This document shows, piece after piece, positions 8,809-42,204 of a DNA stretch of 64,000 bases. The DNA is from Thermoplasmata archaeon. GTDB lineage: Archaea > Thermoplasmatota > Thermoplasmata > Methanomassiliicoccales > Methanomethylophilaceae. The notes below the pieces were generated by a model that saw only the letters and a program-made list of their open reading frames with translations, did not search any database and was not told where the DNA came from. Both the position numbers and the translations under genes were made by a program. Position 1 is the first letter of the stretch. Each line of letters opens with the position of its first letter. Where the stretch lies: contig SUTA01000009.1 of NCBI GenBank assembly GCA_015063135.1, positions 25,869 to 89,868 of the forward strand, written 5' to 3'.

Positions 8809-9228
8809 ATGGCTGACTTCGAACCTAGGATCGTTACCTTCTGCTGCAACTGGTGCTCCTACGCGGGCGCCGACGGAGCAGGAGTCGCGAGGCTTCAGAT
8901 GCCCACCAACTTCCGTATCATCAGGACCATGTGCTCCGCGCGTGTCGACCCCGAGTTCATCCTCAGGGCCTTCTCCAAAGGAGCCGACGGCGTGATGGTT
9001 CTCGGATGCCACCCCGCTGACTGCCACTACATCGGCGGCAACTACAGGGCCAGGAGGAGGATCGCCCTCCTCAGGATGGTCCTGGAGCAGTACGGATTCG
9101 ACCCCAAGAGGCTCAAGCTCGAGTGGGTCTCCGCTTCCGAGGGAGAGAAATTCCAGAAGACCGTGTGCGAGTTCATCGACACCATCAAGGCCCTCGGGCC
9201 GACCCCCCTGCAGAAGGAGGCGAACTGA
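8809..9228 (+). CDS. mvhD: F420-non-reducing hydrogenase iron-sulfur subunit D
   Basis: MADFEPRIVTFCCNWCSYAGADGAGVARLQMP. Confidence 0.95.
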   Translation: MADFEPRIVTFCCNWCSYAGADGAGVARLQMPTNFRIIRTMCSARVDPEFILRAFSKGADGVMVLGCHPADCHYIGGNYRARRRIALLRMVLEQYGFDPKRLKLEWVSASEGEKFQKTVCEFIDTIKALGPTPLQKEAN

Positions 9229-10437
9229 ATGGGATTCTTCAGCAAGATATTCAAGAAGGAAGAGAAAGCAGAGCCCGCCAAGAAGGCTGCAGCACCCGTC
9301 AAGGACGCAGCCAAGGAGGCGGCGGCATGCGGATGCGAGACCAAGGACGCGAACGCAGTCGTCGGACTCCAGGCAGCGGACCTGGGAGAGCTCCTCCCCG
9401 GCGCGCCCCCGGGCGGAAAGATCAAGCTAGCCATCTACTGGGCAGCCGCCTGCGGTGGATGCGACGTCTCCATCCTGGATACCAACGAGAGGATCCTGAC
9501 CGTCGGAGACATGGCCGACATCGTCATGTGGCCCATCGCAGCCGATGGGAAGGAGAAGGACATCGCCGCCATGGACGACGGCGAGATCACCGTCTCCATC
9601 ATCTCCGGAGCCGTCAGGAACGCCGAGAACCAGCACATGGTCAAACTGCTCAGGCAGAAGTCCAAGATCGTCGTCGCCTACGGAACCTGCGCCTGCTTCG
9701 GCGGAAGCCCCGCCCTGGCCAACCTGGTCTCCGGTGCCGATGAGATCCTCGACTACGTCTACACCAAGACCCCGACCACCGCCAACTTCCAGGCCGACTA
9801 CAGCAAAGACAAGCCCGTGATCCCCCAGTACAGCTACCAGGCTCCCGAGGGAGAACTGACCCTGCCCATGCTCTTCGACACCGTCAAGACGCTGGACCAG
9901 GTCATCGACGTGGACTACTTCGTCCCCGGATGCCCTCCCCTGCAGGAGACCATCAGCCACATGCTGAAGGCCGTCGCGGACTTCGCCTACGCCGGAGTCG
10001 CCCTCCCGCCCAAGGGAACCATGATCGGTGTCACCACCAAGACCCTGTGCGAGGAGTGCCCCAGGAAGAAGGAGAACGCCAGGATCACCAAGATCTGCGA
10101 GCCCTACCAGGTCAACATCGACCCCGAGAAGTGCCTGATGGACCAGGGAATCCTGTGCCTCGGACCCGCCACCATCGGCGGATGCGGCGCAAGGTGCACC
10201 AGGGTCGGCCAGCCCTGCCGCGGATGCTACGGACCCACCGAGGACGTGCAGGAGCAGGGAGCCAGTATCTTCACCGCCGTCGCGTCCATGTTCCCCATCA
10301 GGGAGGACGATGGAATCATCGGCGAGGACGAGATCATCGAGATCATGAGCACGATCAAGGACCCGCTCGGGTACTTCTACGCGTTCACTCTCGGAAAGTC
10401 TCTCATCAAGAGGGCTGTAAAAGAAGGAGGTCAGTAA
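9229..10437 (+). CDS. mvhG: F420-non-reducing hydrogenase small subunit
   Basis: NiFe hydrogenase small subunit motifs; TAA stop. Confidence 0.93.
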   Translation: MGFFSKIFKKEEKAEPAKKAAAPVKDAAKEAAACGCETKDANAVVGLQAADLGELLPGAPPGGKIKLAIYWAAACGGCDVSILDTNERILTVGDMADIVMWPIAADGKEKDIAAMDDGEITVSIISGAVRNAENQHMVKLLRQKSKIVVAYGTCACFGGSPALANLVSGADEILDYVYTKTPTTANFQADYSKDKPVIPQYSYQAPEGELTLPMLFDTVKTLDQVIDVDYFVPGCPPLQETISHMLKAVADFAYAGVALPPKGTMIGVTTKTLCEECPRKKENARITKICEPYQVNIDPEKCLMDQGILCLGPATIGGCGARCTRVGQPCRGCYGPTEDVQEQGASIFTAVASMFPIREDDGIIGEDEIIEIMSTIKDPLGYFYAFTLGKSLIKRAVKEGGQ

Positions 10438-17494: not shown

Positions 17495-18451
17495 ATGTGC
17501 GGATACGAACCCAAATTCACTGTATCTGCCGAGTGCATCAACCTCGTCGCAGACATCTCGGCCATGCTGGCCAAGATCGAGCCTAGCTCGATCTCCAGAG
17601 ACGTCAGGCTGAGGAAGATCAACAGGGTGAAGTCGATCCAATCCTCCCTCCAGATAGAGGCCAACTCGATGACCGTCGAGCAGGTGACCGCCATAATCGA
17701 CGGCAAGCGCGTCCTCGGGCCCCCGAGGGAGATCCTGGAGGTGCAGAACGCCATCCGCTCGTACGACATGATCCCTGAGCTGGACCCGTTCTCGGTCGAG
17801 GACCTCCTGAGGCTCCACGGCGCCATGATGGCGGGCCTGACCGACCAGGCGGGCATGTTCCGCAGCGTGGGAGTGAACGTGGTGAACTCGGCCACCGGAG
17901 AGGTCATACACCACGCTCCGCACCCCGACTTCGTGCCCAGGTTCATCGGGGAGCTCCTGGAGTGGGCGGCGTCCTCAGAGCACCATCCCCTCATCGTGAG
18001 CTGCGTGTTCCACCACGAATTCGAGTTCATACACCCGTTCACCGACGGCAACGGCCGCACAGGGAGGCTCTGGCAGACGCTGATGCTCACGAGATGGAAC
18101 CCGGTCTTCGAATGGATCCCCGTGGAATCCGCAGTCAGGGACCGCAGGTACGACTACTACAGGGCGATAAGGGAGGCGACGGATGCGGATGACACCTGCG
18201 TCTTCATCGAGTTCATGCTGAGGGCCATCCGGGATGCCCTTGATGAGATGGCCAAAGCCCGCGGGGGGACGGAAGAAGCGGTTCTGGGCTTGATCGCGTC
18301 CGGATCCTACTCGAATGCGAGGGATGCGGCAGAGAGGCTTGGGGTGTCTGTGAAGACCGTGGAACGCTCCATTTCAGTACTCAAGGAGCAAGGCAGGATC
18401 GTCAGAGAAGGCTCGGACAAGAAAGGATCGTGGGTCATCGCCAAGGAGCGA
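17495..18451 (+). CDS. Fic family protein with C-terminal winged helix
   Basis: HPFTDGNGRTGRLW Fic motif; ends ...GSWVIAKE + CGA (18449-18451); standard ORF continues through a CPCK repeat. Confidence 0.88.
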
Positions 18452-18563
18452 TGTCCGTGTAAATGTCCGTGTAAATGTCCGTGTAAATGTCCAGCCATCG
18501 CTTGGAACGCCCGCATCGACTGACCCCGCACTATAAGAATGGGCATAGACCTATACCTTTGTC

Positions 18564-19712
18564 ATGGACAGGAAGGTCAAGGGCATAGCGATATCGGCAG
18601 TCGCAGCTTTGATCCTGATAGCGGCGATCCTCGCCCTCATCCCCCGCGGTTCCGATGAGCCCACCGTCATAAAGGCCCAAGTCACCGGGTTGGATGCCTT
18701 CGATAACTTTGTCCTGGACGTCACGGAGGAGCAGCTCCACGGCATAGGGGCGGATGTGGGCCACGAGATGTACCTGGACGTCAACGGAGAGCGCATCATA
18801 GCGATACATTCCCATAACTGGAGCGGGGTGCCGCATGCCGCAGTCTTCCTCAACCACAGCCAATCCACGAACGAAATATCCCTCGGGATGTACAACGCAC
18901 ATCCATGAGGAGATCCAGCTCCATACCGGGGACGAGGTGGGCATCTCCTACAAGGGGCCCAACAAGTACTACGATTCCCTCGACAAGTACCTGAGGCCTT
19001 TCTCAGGCAATGCCGACGACTATGACGACGAGGAGACTTTCGCCAACTTCCGCATGCTCACCGGAGGCTCCCTCAGGGACGATCTGATAACCGCTCGGCG
19101 TCCCCGTGGACGACCAAGGACGAGCGCGTGTTCTCCGTCAACAGGCTATGCGGCGAGGCGGGGATCGAATCCATGCTCATACTCGACATCGGCCAGGAGG
19201 ACCTTGCAGAGGCGGCCCTCCCGTACAAGGACCTCTACTGCTACGGGCTGCTCGAATCCGGACGCGTCCAGGCCAGCAAGCTCCATCCCGCCGTGCTCAA
19301 CGACACCGAGGACATCGGGGAGTTCTTCGAGATGCTGAATAAAGCCGAGGGCAAGGTGGACATCGCATGCAAGTACGGGAAGGACCGCACTGGCACCTAC
19401 TGCGCGATGCTGCAGGCCCTCGCAGGGGCCTCGTACCAGGAGATCTGCGACGAGTTCATGAGGTCCATGACCAACTATTACGGCATCGAGAAGGGGACCG
19501 CCGAGTACAAGGCGGTGGAGAGCATATACATCTGCCCGCTGCTGTACTCGATCCAGCACCCCGAGATCATAGGCAATTACCACAAGGTCGACTGGGACAG
19601 CATCGAGTACAAGCCGTTCGATCCGCACGATGCGGTGTACAGCTTCCTCACGTCATACGCGGGCATAGACCCCGGGCTGATCGACGAGGTCATAGAGAAG
19701 ATCACGGCGCGA
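18564..19712 (+). pseudogene. Secreted tyrosine-phosphatase-like protein, two compensating frameshifts
   Basis: 18564-18908 frame (signal anchor), then +1 frame (IHEEIQLHTGDEVGISYKG...), then original frame (VFSVNRLCGEAGIES...CKYGKDRTGTYC). CGA at 19710-19712 after ...EKITA. Confidence 0.6.
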
Positions 19713-20960: not shown

Positions 20961-21587
20961 ATGAAATCCACAATCGTTCTGCTCGGGCCCCCTGGCTCCG
21001 GCAAAGGCACCCAGGGAGAAAAGCTGTCCGACGAGTTCGGGTACGTCAGGCTCTCCACCGGCGACATGCTCCGCGAGGCCGTGAGGAACGGCACCGAGCT
21101 GGGCAAGAAGGCCAAGTCCTACATGGATGCCGGCGGGCTGGTCCCCAACGACATCATCATCGGCCTCATGAAGGAGAAGATCGCCGCCTGCAACGGCAAG
21201 GTCCTCCTGGACGGGTTCCCCCGCACCGTGGAGCAGGCCGACGCCCTGGCCGAGCAGCTCGATGTCGATCTGGCACTGAACCTGGACGTCGCCGACGAGG
21301 AGCTCATCTCCAGGCTCACCAACAGGCGCTCCTGCCCCGACTGCAACGCCGTGTACCACCTGGTCACCAAGAAGCCCAAGAAGGACGGCGTCTGCGACAA
21401 GTGCGGCGCCCAGCTCTACCAGAGGGACGACGACAAGGAAGCGACCGTCAAGAACAGGCTGGAGGTCTACCGCAAGAACACCATGCCCCTCATCGACTAC
21501 TACCAGAAGAAGGGCACCCTCGTGACAATCATGGGCGTCGGGTCCATCGACGAGATCTACGAGAAGGTCAGGAAGGCCGTCCAGCGA
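20961..21587 (+). CDS. adk: Adenylate kinase
   Basis: IVLLGPPGSGKGTQGEKLSDEF, Cys lid CPDCNAVYHL..CDKCG. Ends ...RKAVQ + CGA (21585-21587), just before a hairpin. Confidence 0.93.
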
Positions 21588-27855: not shown

Positions 27856-29616
27856 TCGCATCTCCTCGGGAGCGCCCATGCCCAGGCAGTCCAGGGTGTC
27901 GGCCAGGACGGTCCTGGCGCACTCCACCAGGGTCAGCCTCGCGTCCCTCTTGTCGGCCTCACCGAGCACGGAGACGTCGGCGTAGAACTTGTTGAACGCG
28001 GCGGCGACCTCGTGGGCGTACTCCGGGAGCATGTGGACCTTCCTCATGTCGCCGGCGGCGGCGAGGACCTCGCCGTACCTGGACAGGGACTTGACGAGCG
28101 CGAGCTCGCTGGGGTGGGTGATCTTGGATGCGTCGGTGCACCTTTTGAAATCGCCGGCCTTCCTCATGACGCTGCAGGCCCTCGCGTGGGCGTACTGCAG
28201 GTACGGGCCGGAGTTGCCGTCGAAGCTGAGCGCGTCCTCCCACTTGAAGACGAACTGCTTCTCGGGCTGGACGCTGACGATGTTGTACCTGACCGCTCCG
28301 ATGCCGACGATGCGGGCGATCTCCCTCATCCTCTCCTCGGGCATGTCGGAGCGGCGCTTCTTGATCTCCTGGTAGGCCCTCTCGACGGACTCGTCGATCA
28401 GGTCGTCCAGGTAGACGACGACCCCTTTCCTGGTGGACATCTTGCCCTCCGGCAGGGAGACGAACGCGTAGAACAGGGGCTCGGGCTGCTTGTCGGAACC
28501 CAGGATCTCGAGGACGGAGCAGAGCTGCTTGGACCCGAGCTTCTGGTCTTCCCCAAGGACGTCGATGACCCTGTCCGCCCTGGTGAACTTGTCCAGGTGG
28601 TAGGCGATGTCCCTGGTGGTGTACAGGGTGGTCCCGTCGGACCTGGTGAAGGTGAACTTGGTGTTCTTGCCCTTGATTCCGAAGTCGGCGAGGTCGACGA
28701 ACCAGGCGCCGTCCTCGGTCTCCCCGGCGTACTTGGACTTCTTCAGGTCGGCCACGACCTTCTGGGCGGAGCCGTCGGCGATGTAGCCGGACTCCCAGGT
28801 GTACCTGTCGAGGGTGACGTTGATGGCGCCGAGGGTCTCCCTCAGGCCGCCGAGCATGATCTCGGCGGTGTGCCTCACGTCGGCGATGACGTTGGCATCC
28901 CCGGCCTCGAAGCCGCGGAGCATCTCGGAGATCTCCCTCTGGACCTCTGGCTCGGCCTCCATCCTCTTGTTGGCCACGCGGTAGTTGGCCACGAGGCGGT
29001 GGTCGGTCTTGTCCCTCTCCTTCTCGTTCTGGCCGATGGTGCGGGCGTGCTCCTCCCTCTCCTCCTCGGCCTCCGCGTCGGAGACGTTGTTGACCCCCCA
29101 GGTCAGCACGACGACCTGCTTGCCCACATCGTTGACGTAGTACTCGGTGGTGACTTCGTGCCCGCACTTCTTCAGGCACCTGGCGAGTGTGTCGCCGATG
29201 ATGGGGTTCCTGGCGCGGCCCACGTGGATGGGGCCGGTGGGGTTGGTCGACGTGTGCTCGACGTTGACCCTCTGCCCGGTCTTGGGATGGGACCCGTAGT
29301 CCCTCCCCTTGGAGACGATCTCCTCCATCACCGCCCCCACCATCGCGGAGGGGTCGATGTAGAAGTTGACGTAACCGTTGACGGCCTCGACGCGGGCGAT
29401 GAGCCCGGCGGGCTGGATCCTGGATGCTATGGCGGAGGCGTACTCCATGGGGTTCTGCTTCGCCATCTTGGCCACGGGGAACAGCGCCATGGCGGCGTCC
29501 GCCCCCGACTTGCCGCTGACGTCCACGGGCAGCTTGGAGAGGTCGAAGCCGGTCTCGCCGACCGCGCCCTCCACGGCCCTGCGGACCTGAACAGTGAAAT
29601 CGTCCATGACGGACAT
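27856..29616 (-). CDS. argS: Arginyl-tRNA synthetase
   Basis: NPTGPIHVGRARNPIIGDTLAR (HIGH-like). Ends ...LGMGAPEEM + CGA (27856-27858), 2 bases before GNAT ATG. Confidence 0.93.
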
Positions 29617-30845
29617 CGGCTCACCTTGTACCTGAGTATGGCGGCGATCCCACCGAACGCCCTCATGAGCATGTCGCCCTCCTCGGAGTCCGGGGAGATG
29701 ATCTCCACCTTTGTGTTGTACTCGTCCGCCTTCATGAAGAAGTCGTCGATGAGGTCCTCGTCCTTGATGACCTGCGCGTTGGCCTTGCACTCGGGGCACT
29801 GGATCCTCTCGTCCGCGTCGGGGACGGTCAGGTCGTGGGTGTGGCCGGAGGGGCACTGCACGGTGACCCTGCGCTTGTCCAGGGCCTCGGACAGCAGGAG
29901 CATGTCCACGGCGCCCATGTCCAGGGCGTTCCTGACCATGGCCTCGCCGTAGCAGGACAAGCCGCCGTCGGCCTTCCTGATCTCCCTGAAGAACCTCTGC
30001 ATGTACTCCTTCTCCTCGGTCAGGCGCACGTCGACGATGATGCCCTTGGCGTTGTCGACCAGCTCCCTGAGGCCGGACTCGTCGGTGTAGCCCGTGTCCA
30101 CGAGGGGGGAGATGACCTTCTTCCTGAGCTCGTGGTGCAGGTACTCCTCCTTGACGAAGAAGTCCTTGGTGGCTCCGGGTCCTCCGACGAGGATGCCGAT
30201 GAGCTCGGGGCGGTTGAGGAAGACCTCCGTGGCGTTGTCGGCGACCTTCTTGAAGAACTCGTGGGCGGCAATCTCGATCAGCCTCTCGAAACGGACGGAC
30301 GACTGACCTCCCTGGTGGTGCTTGGAGGGGACCAGGGAGTCGAAGTGCTTCAGCACCTGTATCCTGCTGCCGCTGAGGATGCCGAGGGTGGCCTCGGACC
30401 TGTCGATGGTGATCAGGCCGTAGCTCCTCTTGTCCAGGAGCATGGCGTCGAGGGGATCGGTGAAGAAGGTGGAGTCGCACCTGTACATGAACGCGGTGAT
30501 GGCCTCGGGGGGGTTGATGACGTACTGGACCATCTTGGTCTGGTCGCCTGCGCGGGGGACCTCGCCGCAGAAGATGACCACGCCGTTCGCCGGGGGCGCC
30601 TTGTAGGTCTTGAGGCGGGCGGCGATGGAGTCGATGGCGCTCTGGACGTGGTTCATGGTCGTCTTCGACTTGATGTTGGATGCCTGAGACTGCTCGTTCC
30701 TGAGGTAGGCCATGACCTCGGAGATCTGCTTGTTCTCCGGGACGTAGACCGAGATCAGCTCGGTCCCGCGCCCCCTGTAGGATGTGATCTCCTGCATCGC
30801 CTTCTTGAAGTCGTATTTCGCCCTGTCCGCATCGTTCTCTGCCAT
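29616..30845 (-). CDS. prf1: Peptide chain release factor aRF1
   Basis: SNIKSKTT (NIKS), GRGTEL, YRCDSTF (YxCxxxF), QGGQSSVRFERL (GGQ). Ends ...AAILRYKVS + CGA (29616-29618), overlapping argS ATG as CGATG. Confidence 0.95.
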
Positions 30846-32568: not shown

Positions 32569-33990
32569 ATGCCCGAACTGACGAAGAACGAGATGGCGCT
32601 CCTATACCTGGGCGGCTTCAGCAACTCGGACCCGGTGCTGTCGGCCAGCGTCCCCGTTGGGATGACACAGGACGGCATAGCCGGGGCCCTGGGGATCAGC
32701 CGCGGGTACGCCGCGCTGATAACCAGCAGGATGATGGCGCTGGGGCTCGTGGAGGGCATCCAGAAGCACATAACCGGCAGCAAGGGCAGGAGGCTGGCCT
32801 ACTTCCTCACCCCCAAGGGGATGGAGGAGGCCTCCCGGATAAGGAAGGGCGCGGAATCCAACGGCGATGACGTCACCGGCATGTTCCTCAGGGGCGGCGT
32901 GGACGGATGCTCCGCGGAGGAGCTGTCCGCGCTGGACCCCGACGACAGGGACGTCCTGGGATGGCTGTGCCTGATGGAATCAGATGTCATGAGGACCGAG
33001 ATCCCCTCCCGCGCCGCGCCCATCCTGAGGTTCGGGAGGCGCGGCGAGGTCCGGCTGATGCCCGAGACCAGGGAGGCCATGCTGGCGACCGCCTCTGAGG
33101 AGGACCTGGTGCGCTGGCACTGCATTGCGGCCGAATGGTTCGCCGACCGCAGGCCCCAGGACCCGGAGAGGCTCATCCACCTGGCTCTCGGCAGGAGGTC
33201 CATCGAGGCCTCCGGGCTGGTGATGGAGCAGAGGTGCCGGATCCTGGACTCCCCGGACATCGTCCACCTGAGGGCGCTGAAGGAGGTCTGCAGGGTGTCG
33301 AAGGACCCGCGCGTCCATGAGACCGCGGTGATGCTGGCACTGTCCCTCCGCGACATGGCCTCGGCCCGCGAGGTCCTCTCCGGGGCGGCCTGCCTCAAAG
33401 GCGACGGGCTCAAGGCGATGAGGGCGGAGCTAGCGATAATGGAGGGGGACTGCGCCGAGGGGCTAAGATGCGCGGTGGACTCCTACAGCGGGGACCCCGA
33501 GAGCTCGCTCAGGCTGGCCCGCGGCTACCTGGTGTCGAGGATGCCCGAGAGCGCCCTGCCCTTCATCCGCCACGCCGTGAGGGCGATGTTCAGGAGCGGG
33601 TGCCTTTTCGGGCTGGACGAGGCCTACAGGCTGGAATCGCTGGCGCTGATGAGGATCGGCGACTGCGGGAGGGCCCTGGACAGCCTGGACCTGGCCATGG
33701 AGGCCTGCACGGACGGCATCCGCGCGGAATGCATCGAGCGGATGCGCACGGAGCTCGCCAGGATCGCGGCCTCGGAGGACGGGGTTCGCCCTGAGGGTGT
33801 CCAGATCGGATATGTACAGATCCCTGATGTCCTTTATGTCCCATTTGAGCATGGCCAGCCTCTCGAAGCCGAATCCCCATGCCAGGACCGGCACGTCGAT
33901 GCCGAAGGGGGCCACGACCTCGGGCCTGAATATGCCCGCCCCTCCGAGCTCCATCCACTTGCCGTGGAAGAAGACCTCGAGCTCCAGCGA
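32569..33990 (+). CDS. Winged-helix/TPR-like protein (3' end uncertain)
   Basis: N-terminal wHTH (LTKNEMALLYLGG...QDGIAGALGISRGYAALITSRM). Next in-frame CGA at 33988-33990 gives a ~220 bp antisense overlap with pheS. Confidence 0.5.
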
Positions 33991-35289
33991 GGGCTCCGTG
34001 TACGGGAAGTACGCGGGCCTGATGCGGATCTTGTCGAAGCCCATCCTGGCGTAGAACTCGCGGATGATGGAGATGAGCATGTCGAAGTTGGCGTTCTCGT
34101 CGATGACGATGCCCTCGATCTGGGTGAACTCCGGCAGGTGGGTGGAGTCGATGGACTCCTTCCTGAAGATCCTGGAGATGGAGAACGCCTTCCTGGGGGC
34201 GTCGGGGTGCTCGGCGATGTACTTGATGGAGCTGACGGTGCTGTGGGTCCTCAGGAGCGCGGCCTCGGCCCTCTCCCTGGACCACTCGCCGCCCCAGCCG
34301 GTGGAGCCGGTGTCCCCTCCGTTCTCGTGGATCGCCCTGATCTGGGCCACCAGGGCCTCGTCGTCAATGTGGATGGAGGCGGGGTGCTCCAGGTAGAACG
34401 TGTCCTGGAGGTCCCTGGCGGGGTGGTCCTGGGGGGTGTAGAGCACATCCATGTTCCAGAACGCGGGCTGGACGTACTCGGAGGACATCTCGGTGAATCC
34501 CATGTCGGTGAACAGCCTGCGGACCTGGGCCCCGAGCCTGGTGAGGGGGTGCCTCTTCGCGGGGTAGACGGAGGGGGCGAAGGTCTGGATGTCGTACTTC
34601 CTGAACTCCGCGTCCTTCCACTCGCCGCTCTGGATGATGCGGTCGGTGATCTCGGTGATCTGCTTCTTGAGCTCGATGCCGGATGCCGCGGCCTCCTTCC
34701 CGAGGTCGGTGAGAGTGACGGTGCGGGTGGTGACGACCTTCTCCTGGATCATGCCCTGGCGGCCCTTGAGATCCTTGATAACGGCCTTGTCGGCCTCGGC
34801 CTCGGGGACGTCGCCGGCTGCCATCCTCTTGAGGAGGGCCTCGTCGGGCATCTCCTTGGACAGCATGGCCTTTCCGTTGTCGGTCAGGACCAGGACGTTG
34901 GAGTCCCCGTCCCTGACGATGTCGGCCAGCTTCTTCCTCTTGAGCCATCCGACGGCGATCTTGTCGCCGCCCTGCATGGCCTCTGCGAGGTCGGACATGG
35001 GCATCCTGCCGCCCGCCCCGTCGACGAGCTTGATGGCGATCCTCTCCGGGAGCCCCTGCTCCACGGCGGACCTCTCCTCGAGGGAGTAGAACTTCTCCAC
35101 GGTCTCGGAGATCGCGGCCAGCCCCTTGGACTCCAGCCACGATGCGGCGCCCATGACCTCCAGCTCGATGTCGAAGTCACCCGCCGCTATGAGGTCGGCG
35201 GGGCTTGCGCTCCCGCCCCTGGCGTCCAGCGCCAGAAGCAGTCTCTTCTCGTTGTAGCTGAGTCCTTCCATTATTGAAGCGTCCACCAT
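33772..35289 (-). CDS. pheS: Phenylalanyl-tRNA synthetase subunit alpha
   Basis: HPLTRLGAQVRRLFTDMGFTEM...PAFWNMDVLYTPQDHPARDLQDTFYL; ends ...TLRANPVL + CGA (33772-33774). Confidence 0.93.
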
Positions 35290-37004: not shown

Positions 37005-37760
37005 ATGCTGGAAGCCCATGTGCTCGCCAGCGGCAGCGATGGCAACTGCTGCGTGATAGAGTGCGACGGCGAGGCGGTGATGATCGACTGCGGCCTCAGC
37101 TGCAGGAGGATCATGTCGCTGATGGACCAGGCCGGCGTGGACTCGTCGATGATAAAGGCCATACTCGTAACCCATGAGCACGGCGACCACATCAGCGGGG
37201 CCCAGGCCACCGCCAGGAAGCTGGACGTCCCGATAATGACCAACCTGGCCACCTTCGAGGCCAGCGGGTTCTCCAATGTGAAGTACGTGCCGGTGGACCC
37301 GTCGAAGTCCTTCGAGGTCGGGTCCATGAAGGTCACCCCCCTGCCGACGTCCCACGACGCCGTGGACCCCCACTGCTACTTCACCGAGACCGACCAGGGC
37401 AACGTCGTCATCGCCACCGACACGGGGAAGATGAACTTCCAGATCGCCCATGCCATATCCCTATCCGACATAGCCATCGTGGAGTCCAACTACGACATAC
37501 AGATGCTCCGCGACGGCCCCTACCCCCTGATACTCCAGAAGAGGATACGCGGCGAGTACGGCCACATGTCCAACGTGGACTGCGCCAGGACCCTGAGGGA
37601 CCACATGAAGCCCGGGGCGACCGTGTTCCTGGCGCATCTTTCCAAGAACAACAACCTGCCCGACGTCGCGCGCCAGACGGTCTCCGACATCTCCGGCATT
37701 GACCGCCGGAAGATAGACTGCATGGAGTTCCAGTGCGACATCAGGACGCTGAAGAAGCGA
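37005..37760 (+). CDS. MBL-fold metallohydrolase (YycJ-like)
   Basis: LASGSDGNCCVIE...VTHEHGDHISG; ends ...CDIRTLKK + CGA (37758-37760). Confidence 0.88.
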
Positions 37761-37771
37761 GCGCTCCCTTC

Positions 37772-38617
37772 TCACGGCGCCGGCCTGACGATGACGGCCT
37801 TCTCCATCCTCACCAGGGCGTCCGCCATGACCTTCGGCATGGTGATCACGTCCTCCTTGGACAGCTCGTAGTCCCTCTCGGGGCCCACGAACGCCGGCAG
37901 GTCCTCCAGGACCCTCAGCAGGACCATGGTCTCCATGTCGTCCTCCGTAGGCTCCGGCACCGGCTTGGGCGCCTCCTGCATCCCGGCCATGAAGACCGCG
38001 TCGGAATCGTCAGGGAAGTCCCCAGGCATGTCGGCCGGGTCGTCGAACGGCTCGAAGTCGTCGACGGGCTCCTCCTCCGGGATCTCCGCGGGCTCGGGGG
38101 CCGGCTTGGGCTCCTCAGGGGCGGGAGCGTGCCTGGTGACGACCGCCGGCTCCTCCGGGACCGCCGCAGGCGCGGGCTCCTCGGCGGGCTCCACGTCCAG
38201 GCGGGTGTCGGTGTAGGGGCGCCTGCCCCTCAGGGCGTCCACCGTGGCGGCGTGCTCCGCGAAGATCGCCGACAGCCTGTCGTAGAAATCCTTCTCCTCG
38301 GGGGTCAGGGCGTCCAGGGCGTTCCCGGCGCCGGTCACGGTCCTGAGGGCCATCTTGCTGATCTTCATGGACCTGAGGCTGATGACCTCCTTCACGAGGG
38401 TGTCCGCCTTCTTGCGGCGGGAGTTGGCCCCCTCGCACATCAGCGACTCGGGGTCCTTCCTGAGCTCCCTCTCGTAGTCGTCCCTGAGGCGGTTCAGGAG
38501 CTCGGCCATGGCCTTGAACAGGTCCGGCCTGGTCTTCGACAACGCCCCGCCCTTCATCTCGACCCTGTAGAGCTCTGACAGCTCCTCGAAGGTCATAGGC
38601 TCGTAGACGGGGCTCAT
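37772..38617 (-). CDS. GINS complex subunit (Gins51/15-like)
   Basis: MSPVYEPMTFEELSELYRVEMKGGALSKTRPDLFKAMAELLNRLRDDYERELRKDPESLMCEGANSRRKKA; TGA stop. Confidence 0.85.
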   Translation of the reverse strand: MSPVYEPMTFEELSELYRVEMKGGALSKTRPDLFKAMAELLNRLRDDYERELRKDPESLMCEGANSRRKKADTLVKEVISLRSMKISKMALRTVTGAGNALDALTPEEKDFYDRLSAIFAEHAATVDALRGRRPYTDTRLDVEPAEEPAPAAVPEEPAVVTRHAPAPEEPKPAPEPAEIPEEEPVDDFEPFDDPADMPGDFPDDSDAVFMAGMQEAPKPVPEPTEDDMETMVLLRVLEDLPAFVGPERDYELSKEDVITMPKVMADALVRMEKAVIVRPAP

Positions 38618-38656
38618 GCTCCACCCATGCTCGGGCGCGTAGATAACCTTTCGGTA

Positions 38657-40177
38657 TCGCGCGAGCGCGTCCTCGGACATGAGGTATGCCAGGCGCGCCC
38701 CCCTGTACTGGTTGGCCAGGTCTATCGGGTAGGCGCCGCAGATGAAGGCGACCCCGGCGTAGCTGCCGTTGTCCCAGCGCCCGCCGGACGTCATGGAGTT
38801 GGTGCTGCCGTCGGAGCTGTTAACGATGTCCCCGGGGAACTCCGGGTCGGAGTAGGCGGCGGCGTTGGCGTTGGATGCCGTCGGGGTGTCCCAGGTGGCC
38901 GATCCGGTGGATGCGGAGGCGATGACGCGGTGGGGATCGCCCCCTTTGAAGATGTCGGCCCAGGGCTGGCCGGCTGAGGGCTGGGGCCTGGATTCGATGA
39001 GCGGTTCGCCTCCCAGGAAATTGCCGGCGTACAGAACCATGGTGTCCTCGGAGTCCCCGGCCACGTAGGCGTCGCCCAGGAAGGTGTTCATGGACCCCCA
39101 GAAGTTCTCTATGAACAGCTTGGACGAGACGCTCCCGTCCTCGGTGGAGACCCGCCCCGACGCGGAGACCGTGGAGGCCGCGTTCCCGATGAACCCGACG
39201 GCATCGGTGCTCCCGGTGACCGCGGGTGAGTCGTTTTCCCCCGTGTACCCGGCGCCGACCATGACCTGGGCGTTCTTGGTCCCCATCACCGTGTAGGCCA
39301 TTATCTTGCAGAGGGTCCACTGGTAGAAGTTCCACTGCTGGTAATCGGATTCGAGCCCGTCGCCGGATGCGGGGATCAGCGCGTCGGCGAGGCCCTTGAA
39401 CCCGTCGACGTTCGGGCCGGAGGCCGGGACCCTCCCGCTCTGGGACACCATCGCCCCGGAGACGATGTCGGCCTCTGAGGTGGCATACGATTCGTAGACC
39501 CCGATCCCGAGGTACGGATAGACGCTGGACTCGAAGTCGGCCACCCCGCTGACCGTGCTGGCGGAATGGGCGTACGCCACCATGCCGGTCACCTTGGCGT
39601 GCCCGGCGGGGGCGTAGGACGGCTGCGACGAGGCGTAGAGGACGTTGTACTCAGTTCCCTCCACCAGGTTACCGACGGTACTGTCGGCCACGACCGTCTC
39701 GGAGACCCAGTACACGGTGGGGACCACCAGCATGACGTTGTACAGGGTCGTGTCGAACTCGTGCCCGGCAAGGGTCTCGCGCAGGTTGCCGGGGTCGAGG
39801 ATGTACGCGACGCATCCCGCGGATTCGCTCATCCTCCCCTCCGCCCCGTCGTCCGCATCGTACGCGGGGCAGTCGTCCACCAGGTTGATCGCGGCGTAGA
39901 ACGCCCCGAACGGGCCCCTGCCGGTCTCCCCGTCGAACCCCCAGAAGCTGCTGATCCCATCGGGACCGATGAAGGAACGGTACTGCTGACTCATCGCAGT
40001 GCGCTTGCCTCCTTCCGTGTGGGACTCGTACACATCCACTATGTTGAGGTTCTCATGGTCGGTGTATATGGCGTAGAGGTAGCCATCGGCATCCGATCCT
40101 CCATCGGCCGTCAGAACGACCGCGGCGGCCAATACGGCCGCGGCGGCCAACACCGCGGCTACGGGCAGGACCTTCAT
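38657..40177 (-). CDS. Secreted surface protein of unknown function
   Basis: N-terminal signal peptide MKVLPVAAVLAAAAVLAAAVVLTADGGSDA; ends ...YLMSEDALA + CGA (38657-38659), second CGA at 38651-38653; fused to GINS under the standard code. Confidence 0.72.
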
Positions 40178-40251: not shown

Positions 40252-40560
40252 ATGGACATAGAGGACGTTTCCCGCGAGAGGGCCGGCAACCTGGAGGTCG
40301 ATGTTCTGGTATCTCCCAGGTCCAGCAGGTCCGGCCCGGAGGGCTACGACGAGTGGAGGAAGCGCCTGATCCTCAGGGTCAAGGCGCCGCCGCTCGACGG
40401 CAGGGCCAACCAGGAGGTGGAGGAGACGTTCAAGGGGATCACCGGATTCAAATGCCAGGTGACGTCCGGGCAGCTCAACCGCCAGAAGACCGTGACGGTC
40501 TACGGCGACCCGGCGAGGGCCAGGGAGGCCCTGAGGGAGGCTGCGGATGGACGCCGCCGA
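40252..40560 (+). CDS. DUF167/YggU family protein
   Basis: LRVKAPPLDGRANQEVEETF; ends ...REAADGRR + CGA (40558-40560). Confidence 0.82.
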
Positions 40561-40948
40561 GAGGCTGGAATGGTTCGACTCCGTAATCGAGGACCTGGAC
40601 CAGCTGGCGCTCACCCACATCCTCCTCGTGGAGGGGAAGAACGATGTGCTGGCGCTGCACGAGCTGGGGGTGGAGGCTGACATGTTCTGCGTCCAGAGCG
40701 GCGGAGGCCCCGTGAGGGCGTCCGAGTACGCCTGGGAGAAGGGAAGGCCGGCAGTGATCCTCACGGACTGGGACCGCAGGGGCGATTCACTGGCCGACGA
40801 CCTGAGGAGGAACCTGTCCTCCCTGTGCGTCAGGTACGACGATTCCATCAGGGACCGCCTGGCGAGGGTCTGCGGCCCGTTCTGCAGGGACGTCGAGAGC
40901 CTGCACCTGATACGCAGGATGCTGGAAAGGGAAGCCGGAAGGCTTCGA
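40547..40948 (+). CDS. Toprim domain protein
   Basis: ILLVEGKNDVLALHEL...VILTDWDRRGD; ends ...LEREAGRL + CGA (40946-40948). Confidence 0.82.
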
Positions 40949-41607: not shown

Positions 41608-42204
41608 ATGGAAGGCGCTCTCATCGTTCTAGAGGGTATCGACGGCGCGGGGAAGACCACGCTGTCGAAGAGGCTGTGCCAGGAGCTCGAGTCCAGGGGC
41701 AGGTCCGTGGTGCTCACCGCGGAACCCACCCACGAGGGGATCGGCGCGTTCATAAGGAGCGGCGCTGCCGGCGACATATCCCAGTCCACCGAGGCGCTGC
41801 TGTTCAGCGCCGACAGGAACGACCACACCGAGAGGATGATGCGGTGGGTGTCCGAGGGGAAGGTGGTGATATGCGACAGGTACTTCGCATCCACCGTCGC
41901 CTACCAGTCCGCGTCCCTCGAGGGCACCAGGGCCGACACGGAATGGCTGCTGTCCATCAATTCCGATTTCATACAGAGGGCCGACATCACCATCCTGCTG
42001 GACCTGGACCCCGAGACGAGCATGTCCAGGGTCGGGACCAGGGGCGAGGAGGGTAGCAAGTTCGAGCGCTCCGACTTCCTCTCGCAGGTGAGGGGCGGGT
42101 ACCTCGGCCTGGCCGACAGGTTCGGCTTCGAGGTGGTGGACGCGTCCGCGTCCGCCGATGAGGTCTACGCCAGGGTGCTGGCGATGATAGAGGAGGTTAT
42201 CCGA
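41608..42204 (+). CDS. tmk: Thymidylate kinase
   Basis: MEGALIVLEGIDGAGKTTLSKRL; ends ...AMIEEVI + CGA (42202-42204), overlapping next ATG as CGATG. Confidence 0.93.

Follow-up and report, generated by a model that had tools for sequence, protein, structure and literature searches.

The codon CGA, which means arginine nearly everywhere, has in all probability become a translation stop codon in an uncultured methanogenic archaeon of the gut, from which a 64,000-nucleotide stretch of contig SUTA01000009.1, called the window below, was analysed. The source genome, G000, is a metagenome-assembled genome (MAG) of 1.86 Mb with a completeness of 87.5% and a GC content of about 60%. It belongs to the family Methanomethylophilaceae and to the GTDB genus UBA71, proposed as Ca. 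Methanoprimaticola (PMC8727293). In the sequence of G000, CGA is emptied from sense positions, it is found where orthologues have TGA, and tRNA-Arg(UCG) is missing.

The case started from positions 37,772–40,177 on the minus strand, which form a single open reading frame (ORF) of 801 codons under the standard code (table 11). Only two CGA codons are present in it, codon 507 (38657–38659) and codon 509 (38651–38653), and the junction reads GCG-CTC-GCG-CGA-TAC-CGA-AAG. Codon 521 is the initiating methionine of GINS (38617). The original prediction described this ORF as two unrelated genes separated by CGA, and this was upheld: judged from homologues, the ORF joins a pair of ordinary genes, the first of which stops at CGA, because the orthologues of the upstream half stand alone and end with TGA close to the CGA. 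When both halves were aligned to homologues, they corresponded to separate genes, and no homologue with the same fusion was found. The signal-peptide surface-protein gene would cover 38657–40177 (minus strand), with 506 codons followed by the CGA stop at 38657–38659. Five close orthologues (51–65% identity) have a TGA stop 1–4 codons from the first CGA; one of them ends with ...GARLAYLMSEDAF-TGA, aligned with ...GARLAYLMSEDALA-CGA in the window. This half had no Pfam match, and a paralogue is present on contig C18 (locus L002). The GINS replication subunit gene, 37772–38617 (minus strand, 281 aa, TGA stop), is assigned from homologue starts and from profile matches to Gins23 (E=3.6e-6), Sld5 (E=0.0045) and Gins51_C (E=0.0055), which are weak and below curated cut-offs but positioned as expected. 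GINS homologues were found in 94 of 100 relatives, and most good matches begin at or near the same methionine. On the surface-protein mRNA, ribosomes would stop at the CGA at 38657–38659, and GINS would be translated separately. About 27 nt 5' of the GINS ATG, inside the former "fusion", the segment CGAAAGGTTATCTA (38640–38653, minus strand) resembles, by eye, a B recognition element (BRE) and TATA box; it is suggestive of a possible archaeal promoter, which would imply a leaderless start. The two CGA codons had also been likened to tandem stops, and this part was not supported: in the four codons after the gene end, another stop or CGA was no commoner for CGA ends (16%) than for TGA ends (23%), and the second CGA is probably incidental.

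The genome-wide statistics cover 994 kb of G000, on which a codon model was trained without CGA. Under the standard code, 251 of 644 genes contained an in-frame CGA, almost only beyond the true coding end. The coding score per codon was +0.38 ahead of the first in-frame CGA and −0.44 past it, and the stretch downstream was non-coding in 93% of cases (2–46% for control codons), a pattern far beyond chance. When CGA was allowed as a fourth stop, 775 genes were called with more coding sequence; 387 ended with TGA, 345 with CGA, 30 with TAA and 13 with TAG. CGA thus closes about 45% of the genes in this sample and 25 of the 52 genes called in the window. Approximately 232,000 codons of G000 yielded not one credible sense CGA, the seven flagged cases being shadow-frame or very short ORFs. 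On these sequence data, CGA almost certainly ends translation in G000.

The ends of 86 CGA-terminated G000 genes were compared with those of orthologues in 737 gene–genome pairs, partly redundant as some loci share a genome. A standard stop, usually TGA, was located exactly at the CGA in 51% of the pairs and within five codons in 91%; for control genes ending with TGA the values were 67% and 95%, respectively. Among the 567 pairs with more than 11 codons between the G000 CGA and the next standard stop, 520 agreed with the CGA and seven with the next stop. A vote on each in-frame CGA was limited to genes with codon bias; a six-frame ORF set mixes in shadow frames with homology. For G000, 59 CGA codons were voted terminal and none was credibly internal. 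The order-level outgroups with sense CGA showed the reverse, with terminal/internal-type ratios such as 0/39 (0 terminal, 39 internal), 0/23 and 2/35.

The organization of adjacent genes was also informative. Of 229 TGA ends, 76 overlapped the start codon of the following gene as ATGA; CGA cannot form this overlap, and none of 176 CGA ends showed it. The one-base overlap CGATG was found at 24 of the 176 CGA ends, while 4 of the 229 TGA ends had a one-base overlap, and two CGATG pairs lie in the window (aRF1–argS, and tmk with the next gene). At position +4 after CGA ends in G000, C was the rarest base (10%) and T reached 44%.

The tRNA-Arg set of G000 consists of GCG, CCG, UCU and CCU. All other expected isoacceptor families are present and the set is near-complete. 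The reader of CGA, tRNA-Arg(UCG), was not found in G000 by a pattern search in which CCG and GCG matches served as positive controls; the UCG pattern matches most of the family and order outgroups. With the same positive controls, this tRNA was absent from G000, G003, G007, G009, G012, G013, G016, G019, G021, G025 and G030, and it was present in G001, G005, G010, G011, G014, G015, G018, G020, G026, G027, G028 and G029. In all eight retained genes that were read (L293–L300), a 31–39 mismatch (A.A or C.A) closes the anticodon loop and leaves a 4-bp stem. In bacteria, tRNAs with such a mismatch were reported to have altered decoding (PMC13092985), and the retained tRNA-Arg(UCG) are possibly poor or altered CGA readers. 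The claim implied by the original prediction, that CGA is a stop in this organism, is borne out by the genome-wide coding drop, the orthologue ends, the tRNA loss and the CGATG overlaps.

The factor recognizing CGA is probably aRF1, the class I release factor. All 80 outgroup sequences have G27, K59 and K65. These residues are changed only in G021 and G008 (G27S), in G001 (K59R, NIKS to NIRS) and in G000 (K65N, accompanied by N66H, both found in G000 only). By alignment, the changes fall in the GTS loop, within NIKS and immediately after NIKS, the stop-decoding region of eRF1-type factors. G000, G021 and G001, the latter sampled lightly, are among the heavier users of terminal CGA, and in the aRF1 tree the earliest split within the genus separates G000 from the others.

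The aRF1 genes of the genus carry a CGA of their own. Of the 25 genes compared, 24 have CGA at codon 77, an arginine located 20 residues past the N of NIKS, in the context [GT]CT-CGA-CTH (C at +4); no CGA was seen at the 17 other conserved arginine columns, and codon 77 is CGC in G000. Bacterial RF2 (prfB) is autoregulated through an in-frame UGA and a +1 frameshift (PMC12421855). In both systems a stop-type codon is conserved in frame near the beginning of a release-factor gene, presumably at a leaky site. They differ in that the gene here encodes the aRF1 of an archaeon and that its codon, CGA, would have to be read as arginine with no change of frame. The reading frame downstream of CGA77 is unchanged, with no +1 frameshift, and therefore aRF1 would be RF2-like in logic at most, via in-frame readthrough, and not a member of the RF2 system. 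With this restriction, we moderately favour the idea that CGA77 confers RF2-like autoregulation on aRF1 in members of the genus. Another in-frame CGA, at aRF1 codon ~24 (33 residues before NIKS) and mostly in the context TAY-CGA-GGN, recurs outside the genus. It was noted in L207, L217, L219, L223, L225, L237, G033, G034 and Methanoplasma-like loci, and some of the genomes concerned are otherwise poor in CGA.

We propose the following scheme, in which the emptying of CGA, the state of the tRNA and the CGA-ended genes are seen in the sequence, recognition by aRF1 and the autoregulation through CGA77 are inferred, and the order of events is tentative. CGA would first have become very rare and tRNA-Arg(UCG) damaged or lost. 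aRF1 would next have captured CGA, a codon that differs from UGA by a single transition at the first position. TGA would then drift to CGA, most in the lineages with altered aRF1 decoding loops (K65N/N66H in G000, G27S in G021/G008, K59R in G001). In the rest of the genus, CGA77 would act as a sensor: abundant aRF1 would lead to termination at this codon, and scarce aRF1 to readthrough as arginine. The combination of an archaeal CGA capture (accounting in one species for approximately 45% of gene ends), an aRF1 CGA sensor in the genus and an extension beyond the genus is, as a joint claim, somewhat probable.

Several points weigh against this scheme. G000 is a MAG, 87.5% complete. The proposed autoregulation is not applicable to G000 itself, which has no CGA at codon 77, and CGA persists in the aRF1 gene of genomes that lack tRNA-Arg(UCG). 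The association of aRF1 substitutions with the extent of CGA use concerns three lineages, was spotted post hoc and is correlative. G026, G027 and G029 keep a mismatched tRNA-Arg(UCG) yet have some CGA-ended genes, and therefore termination at CGA is perhaps leaky or ambiguous in these genomes.

Other explanations can be envisaged for the same pattern. CGA could be an unassigned codon at which the ribosome, for lack of a tRNA, stalls until it is removed by rescue factors of the Pelota/ABCE1 type, gene ends having drifted to CGA since stalling suffices. The missing tRNA-Arg(UCG) in G000 and much of the genus, and the near disuse of CGA in several relatives, fit with this idea. It would nevertheless require rescue for about 45% of the genes, argS, pheS, adk and even aRF1 among them, whereas the tight CGATG overlaps and the aRF1 loop changes in heavy users point to ordinary release; in addition, terminal CGA is used in species which possess the UCG tRNA. 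We regard unassigned CGA as improbable. A C-to-U editing of the mRNA, making UGA from CGA under a standard code, would leave the same pattern in the DNA, with orthologues having mostly TGA at the same place. All in-frame CGA codons would then have to be edited whatever their context, and the tRNA loss and the aRF1 changes would be left unexplained; editing is in our view very improbable. We know of no general mRNA editing of such kind in archaea.

That G000 is a single MAG makes it conceivable that TGA was miscalled as CGA during sequencing or assembly. However, out-of-frame TGA is normal in coding sequence (xTG followed by A, 29.8, and xCG followed by A, 15.2 per 1000; TGG/CGG, 45/27) and ATG starts followed by A are not depleted, and therefore CGA is not a miscalled TGA. 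Moreover, the pattern recurs in other genomes, and miscalls cannot cause the loss of sense CGA or of a tRNA, so the chance of such an artefact is negligible. A genuine surface–GINS fusion of 801 aa, with CGA read as arginine, would agree with the frame being open under table 11. It is hardly credible, as close orthologues of both halves are separate and CGA ends are found genome-wide; for the same reasons, a simple stop-loss mutation was rejected together with the true fusion. Capture of CGA as a stop codon is the explanation we retain.

Other genes of the window end with CGA. The aRF1 gene (29616–30845, minus strand, codon 77 CGC) has its CGA stop at 29616–29618, overlapping the ATG of argS as CGATG, and all 105 orthologous loci (some genomes duplicated) end within five codons of this CGA. 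In the arginyl-tRNA synthetase gene (27856–29616, minus strand), the match to the TIGR00456 profile is complete up to the final position (569/569), which falls on the residue immediately preceding the CGA, and 79 of 79 orthologous loci agree. PheS (33772–35271, minus strand) matches NF003210 to position 493 of 496; the next standard stop lies 103 codons further, and the CGA coincides with the gene end in all 65 orthologous loci. Adenylate kinase (20961–21587, plus strand) is matched by the adk profile to position 211 of 212, with 37 of 39 orthologous loci in agreement. An MBL-fold hydrolase gene (37005–37760, plus strand), convergent with GINS, also has a CGA stop, in agreement with 24 of 29 orthologous loci. 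From profile and orthologue ends, dTMP kinase (tmk, 41608–42204, plus strand) would stop at a CGA overlapping the next ATG as CGATG. A domain match and orthologue ends likewise indicate a CGA stop for a Toprim-domain gene (40547–40948, plus strand), the orthologues of which in G001 and G002 are also CGA-ended and lie directly before tmk.

Across the genus, sense CGA is nearly absent, aRF1 being the standing exception. By the coding drop, CGA-ended genes amounted to 23 of 86 in G021, an independent case, 4 of 20 in G027, 4 of 17 in G026 and 5 of 27 in G009; the counts were 3 of 82 in G014, 2 of 88 in G030, 1 of 90 in G007 and 1 of 100 in G028. A ribosomal protein L18e-like gene of G014 (L273:7763–8122) contains an internal CGA at a conserved position; this genome keeps tRNA-Arg(UCG), and therefore CGA may still be sense there. 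In three species (L137:6582–7808, L139:6160–7383, L134:5624–6850), the gene of a winged-helix-like regulator close to aRF1 contains in-frame CGA codons that align with one another; L135:11032–12306 has one at another site, and other species are without it. This is a possible second recoded gene. In G027 (C1, about 65976–71627) an open frame of 5,182 codons with a repeated surface-protein domain was seen, the frames of other relatives having 3,000–4,400 codons. The Methanomethylophilus clade was sampled over 10–20 kb per genome, with the names cmk and truB given from sequence motifs, not from a profile search. There, loci L219, L225, L237, L212, L213 and L217 show CGA at gene ends and share an in-frame cmk–CGA–truB junction; L219 has further CGA-ended genes at 18022–18747 and 9150–10001, and most of these loci carry CGA at aRF1 codon ~24. 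The CGA stop may extend to this clade, which we consider as a lead, not a result.

No other case of an amino-acid codon turned into a stop is known to us from a cellular (non-organelle) genome. In organelles, AGA/AGG in vertebrate mitochondria, UCA in Scenedesmus mitochondria and UUA in Thraustochytrium mitochondria are such sense-to-stop changes. They resemble the present case by the use of a sense codon as terminator and the loss of the matching tRNA, but concern tiny genomes; the genome considered here is that of an archaeal cell, measures 1.86 Mb, contains hundreds of genes ending with CGA and encodes a release factor of the eRF1 type. Green-algal mitochondrial cases are listed in PMC6821328. 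No report of CGA as a stop was found in the literature searched, preprints and most subscription papers being outside the search. The Codetta survey described reassignments of CGA/CGG to amino acids only (PMC8629427); Codetta infers amino-acid meanings and a stop would not be called. Its bacterial cases involve the same rare arginine codon box, with CGA reassigned in Absconditabacteria and loss of tRNA(UCG) in some clades (PMC8629427), but they are sense-to-sense changes (Trp or Gln) at 26–38% GC, whereas here CGA would become a stop at about 60% GC. The use of UAG for pyrrolysine in Methanomassiliicoccales (PMC4153887) occurs in the same order and also alters the economy of stop codons, although it is a stop-to-sense change by a suppressor tRNA, the reverse of a sense-to-stop change at CGA.

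The completeness of 87.5% given for G000 may be an underestimate if standard-code gene calls were used, and perhaps likewise for other UBA71 genomes. Standard annotation extends or fuses a large proportion of the genes of these gut methanogens, with consequences for protein databases, for estimates of completeness and for heterologous expression. If true, the change of CGA from sense to stop would be the first that we know of in a cellular rather than an organellar genome, and an aRF1 reading CGA would be a new tool for studying first-base recognition of stop codons by eRF1-type factors. The genus would offer graded intermediates, with the codon emptied but rarely used, the tRNA mismatched, the tRNA lost, and heavy use as a stop; the debate between codon capture and an ambiguous intermediate would therefore become directly testable within it.
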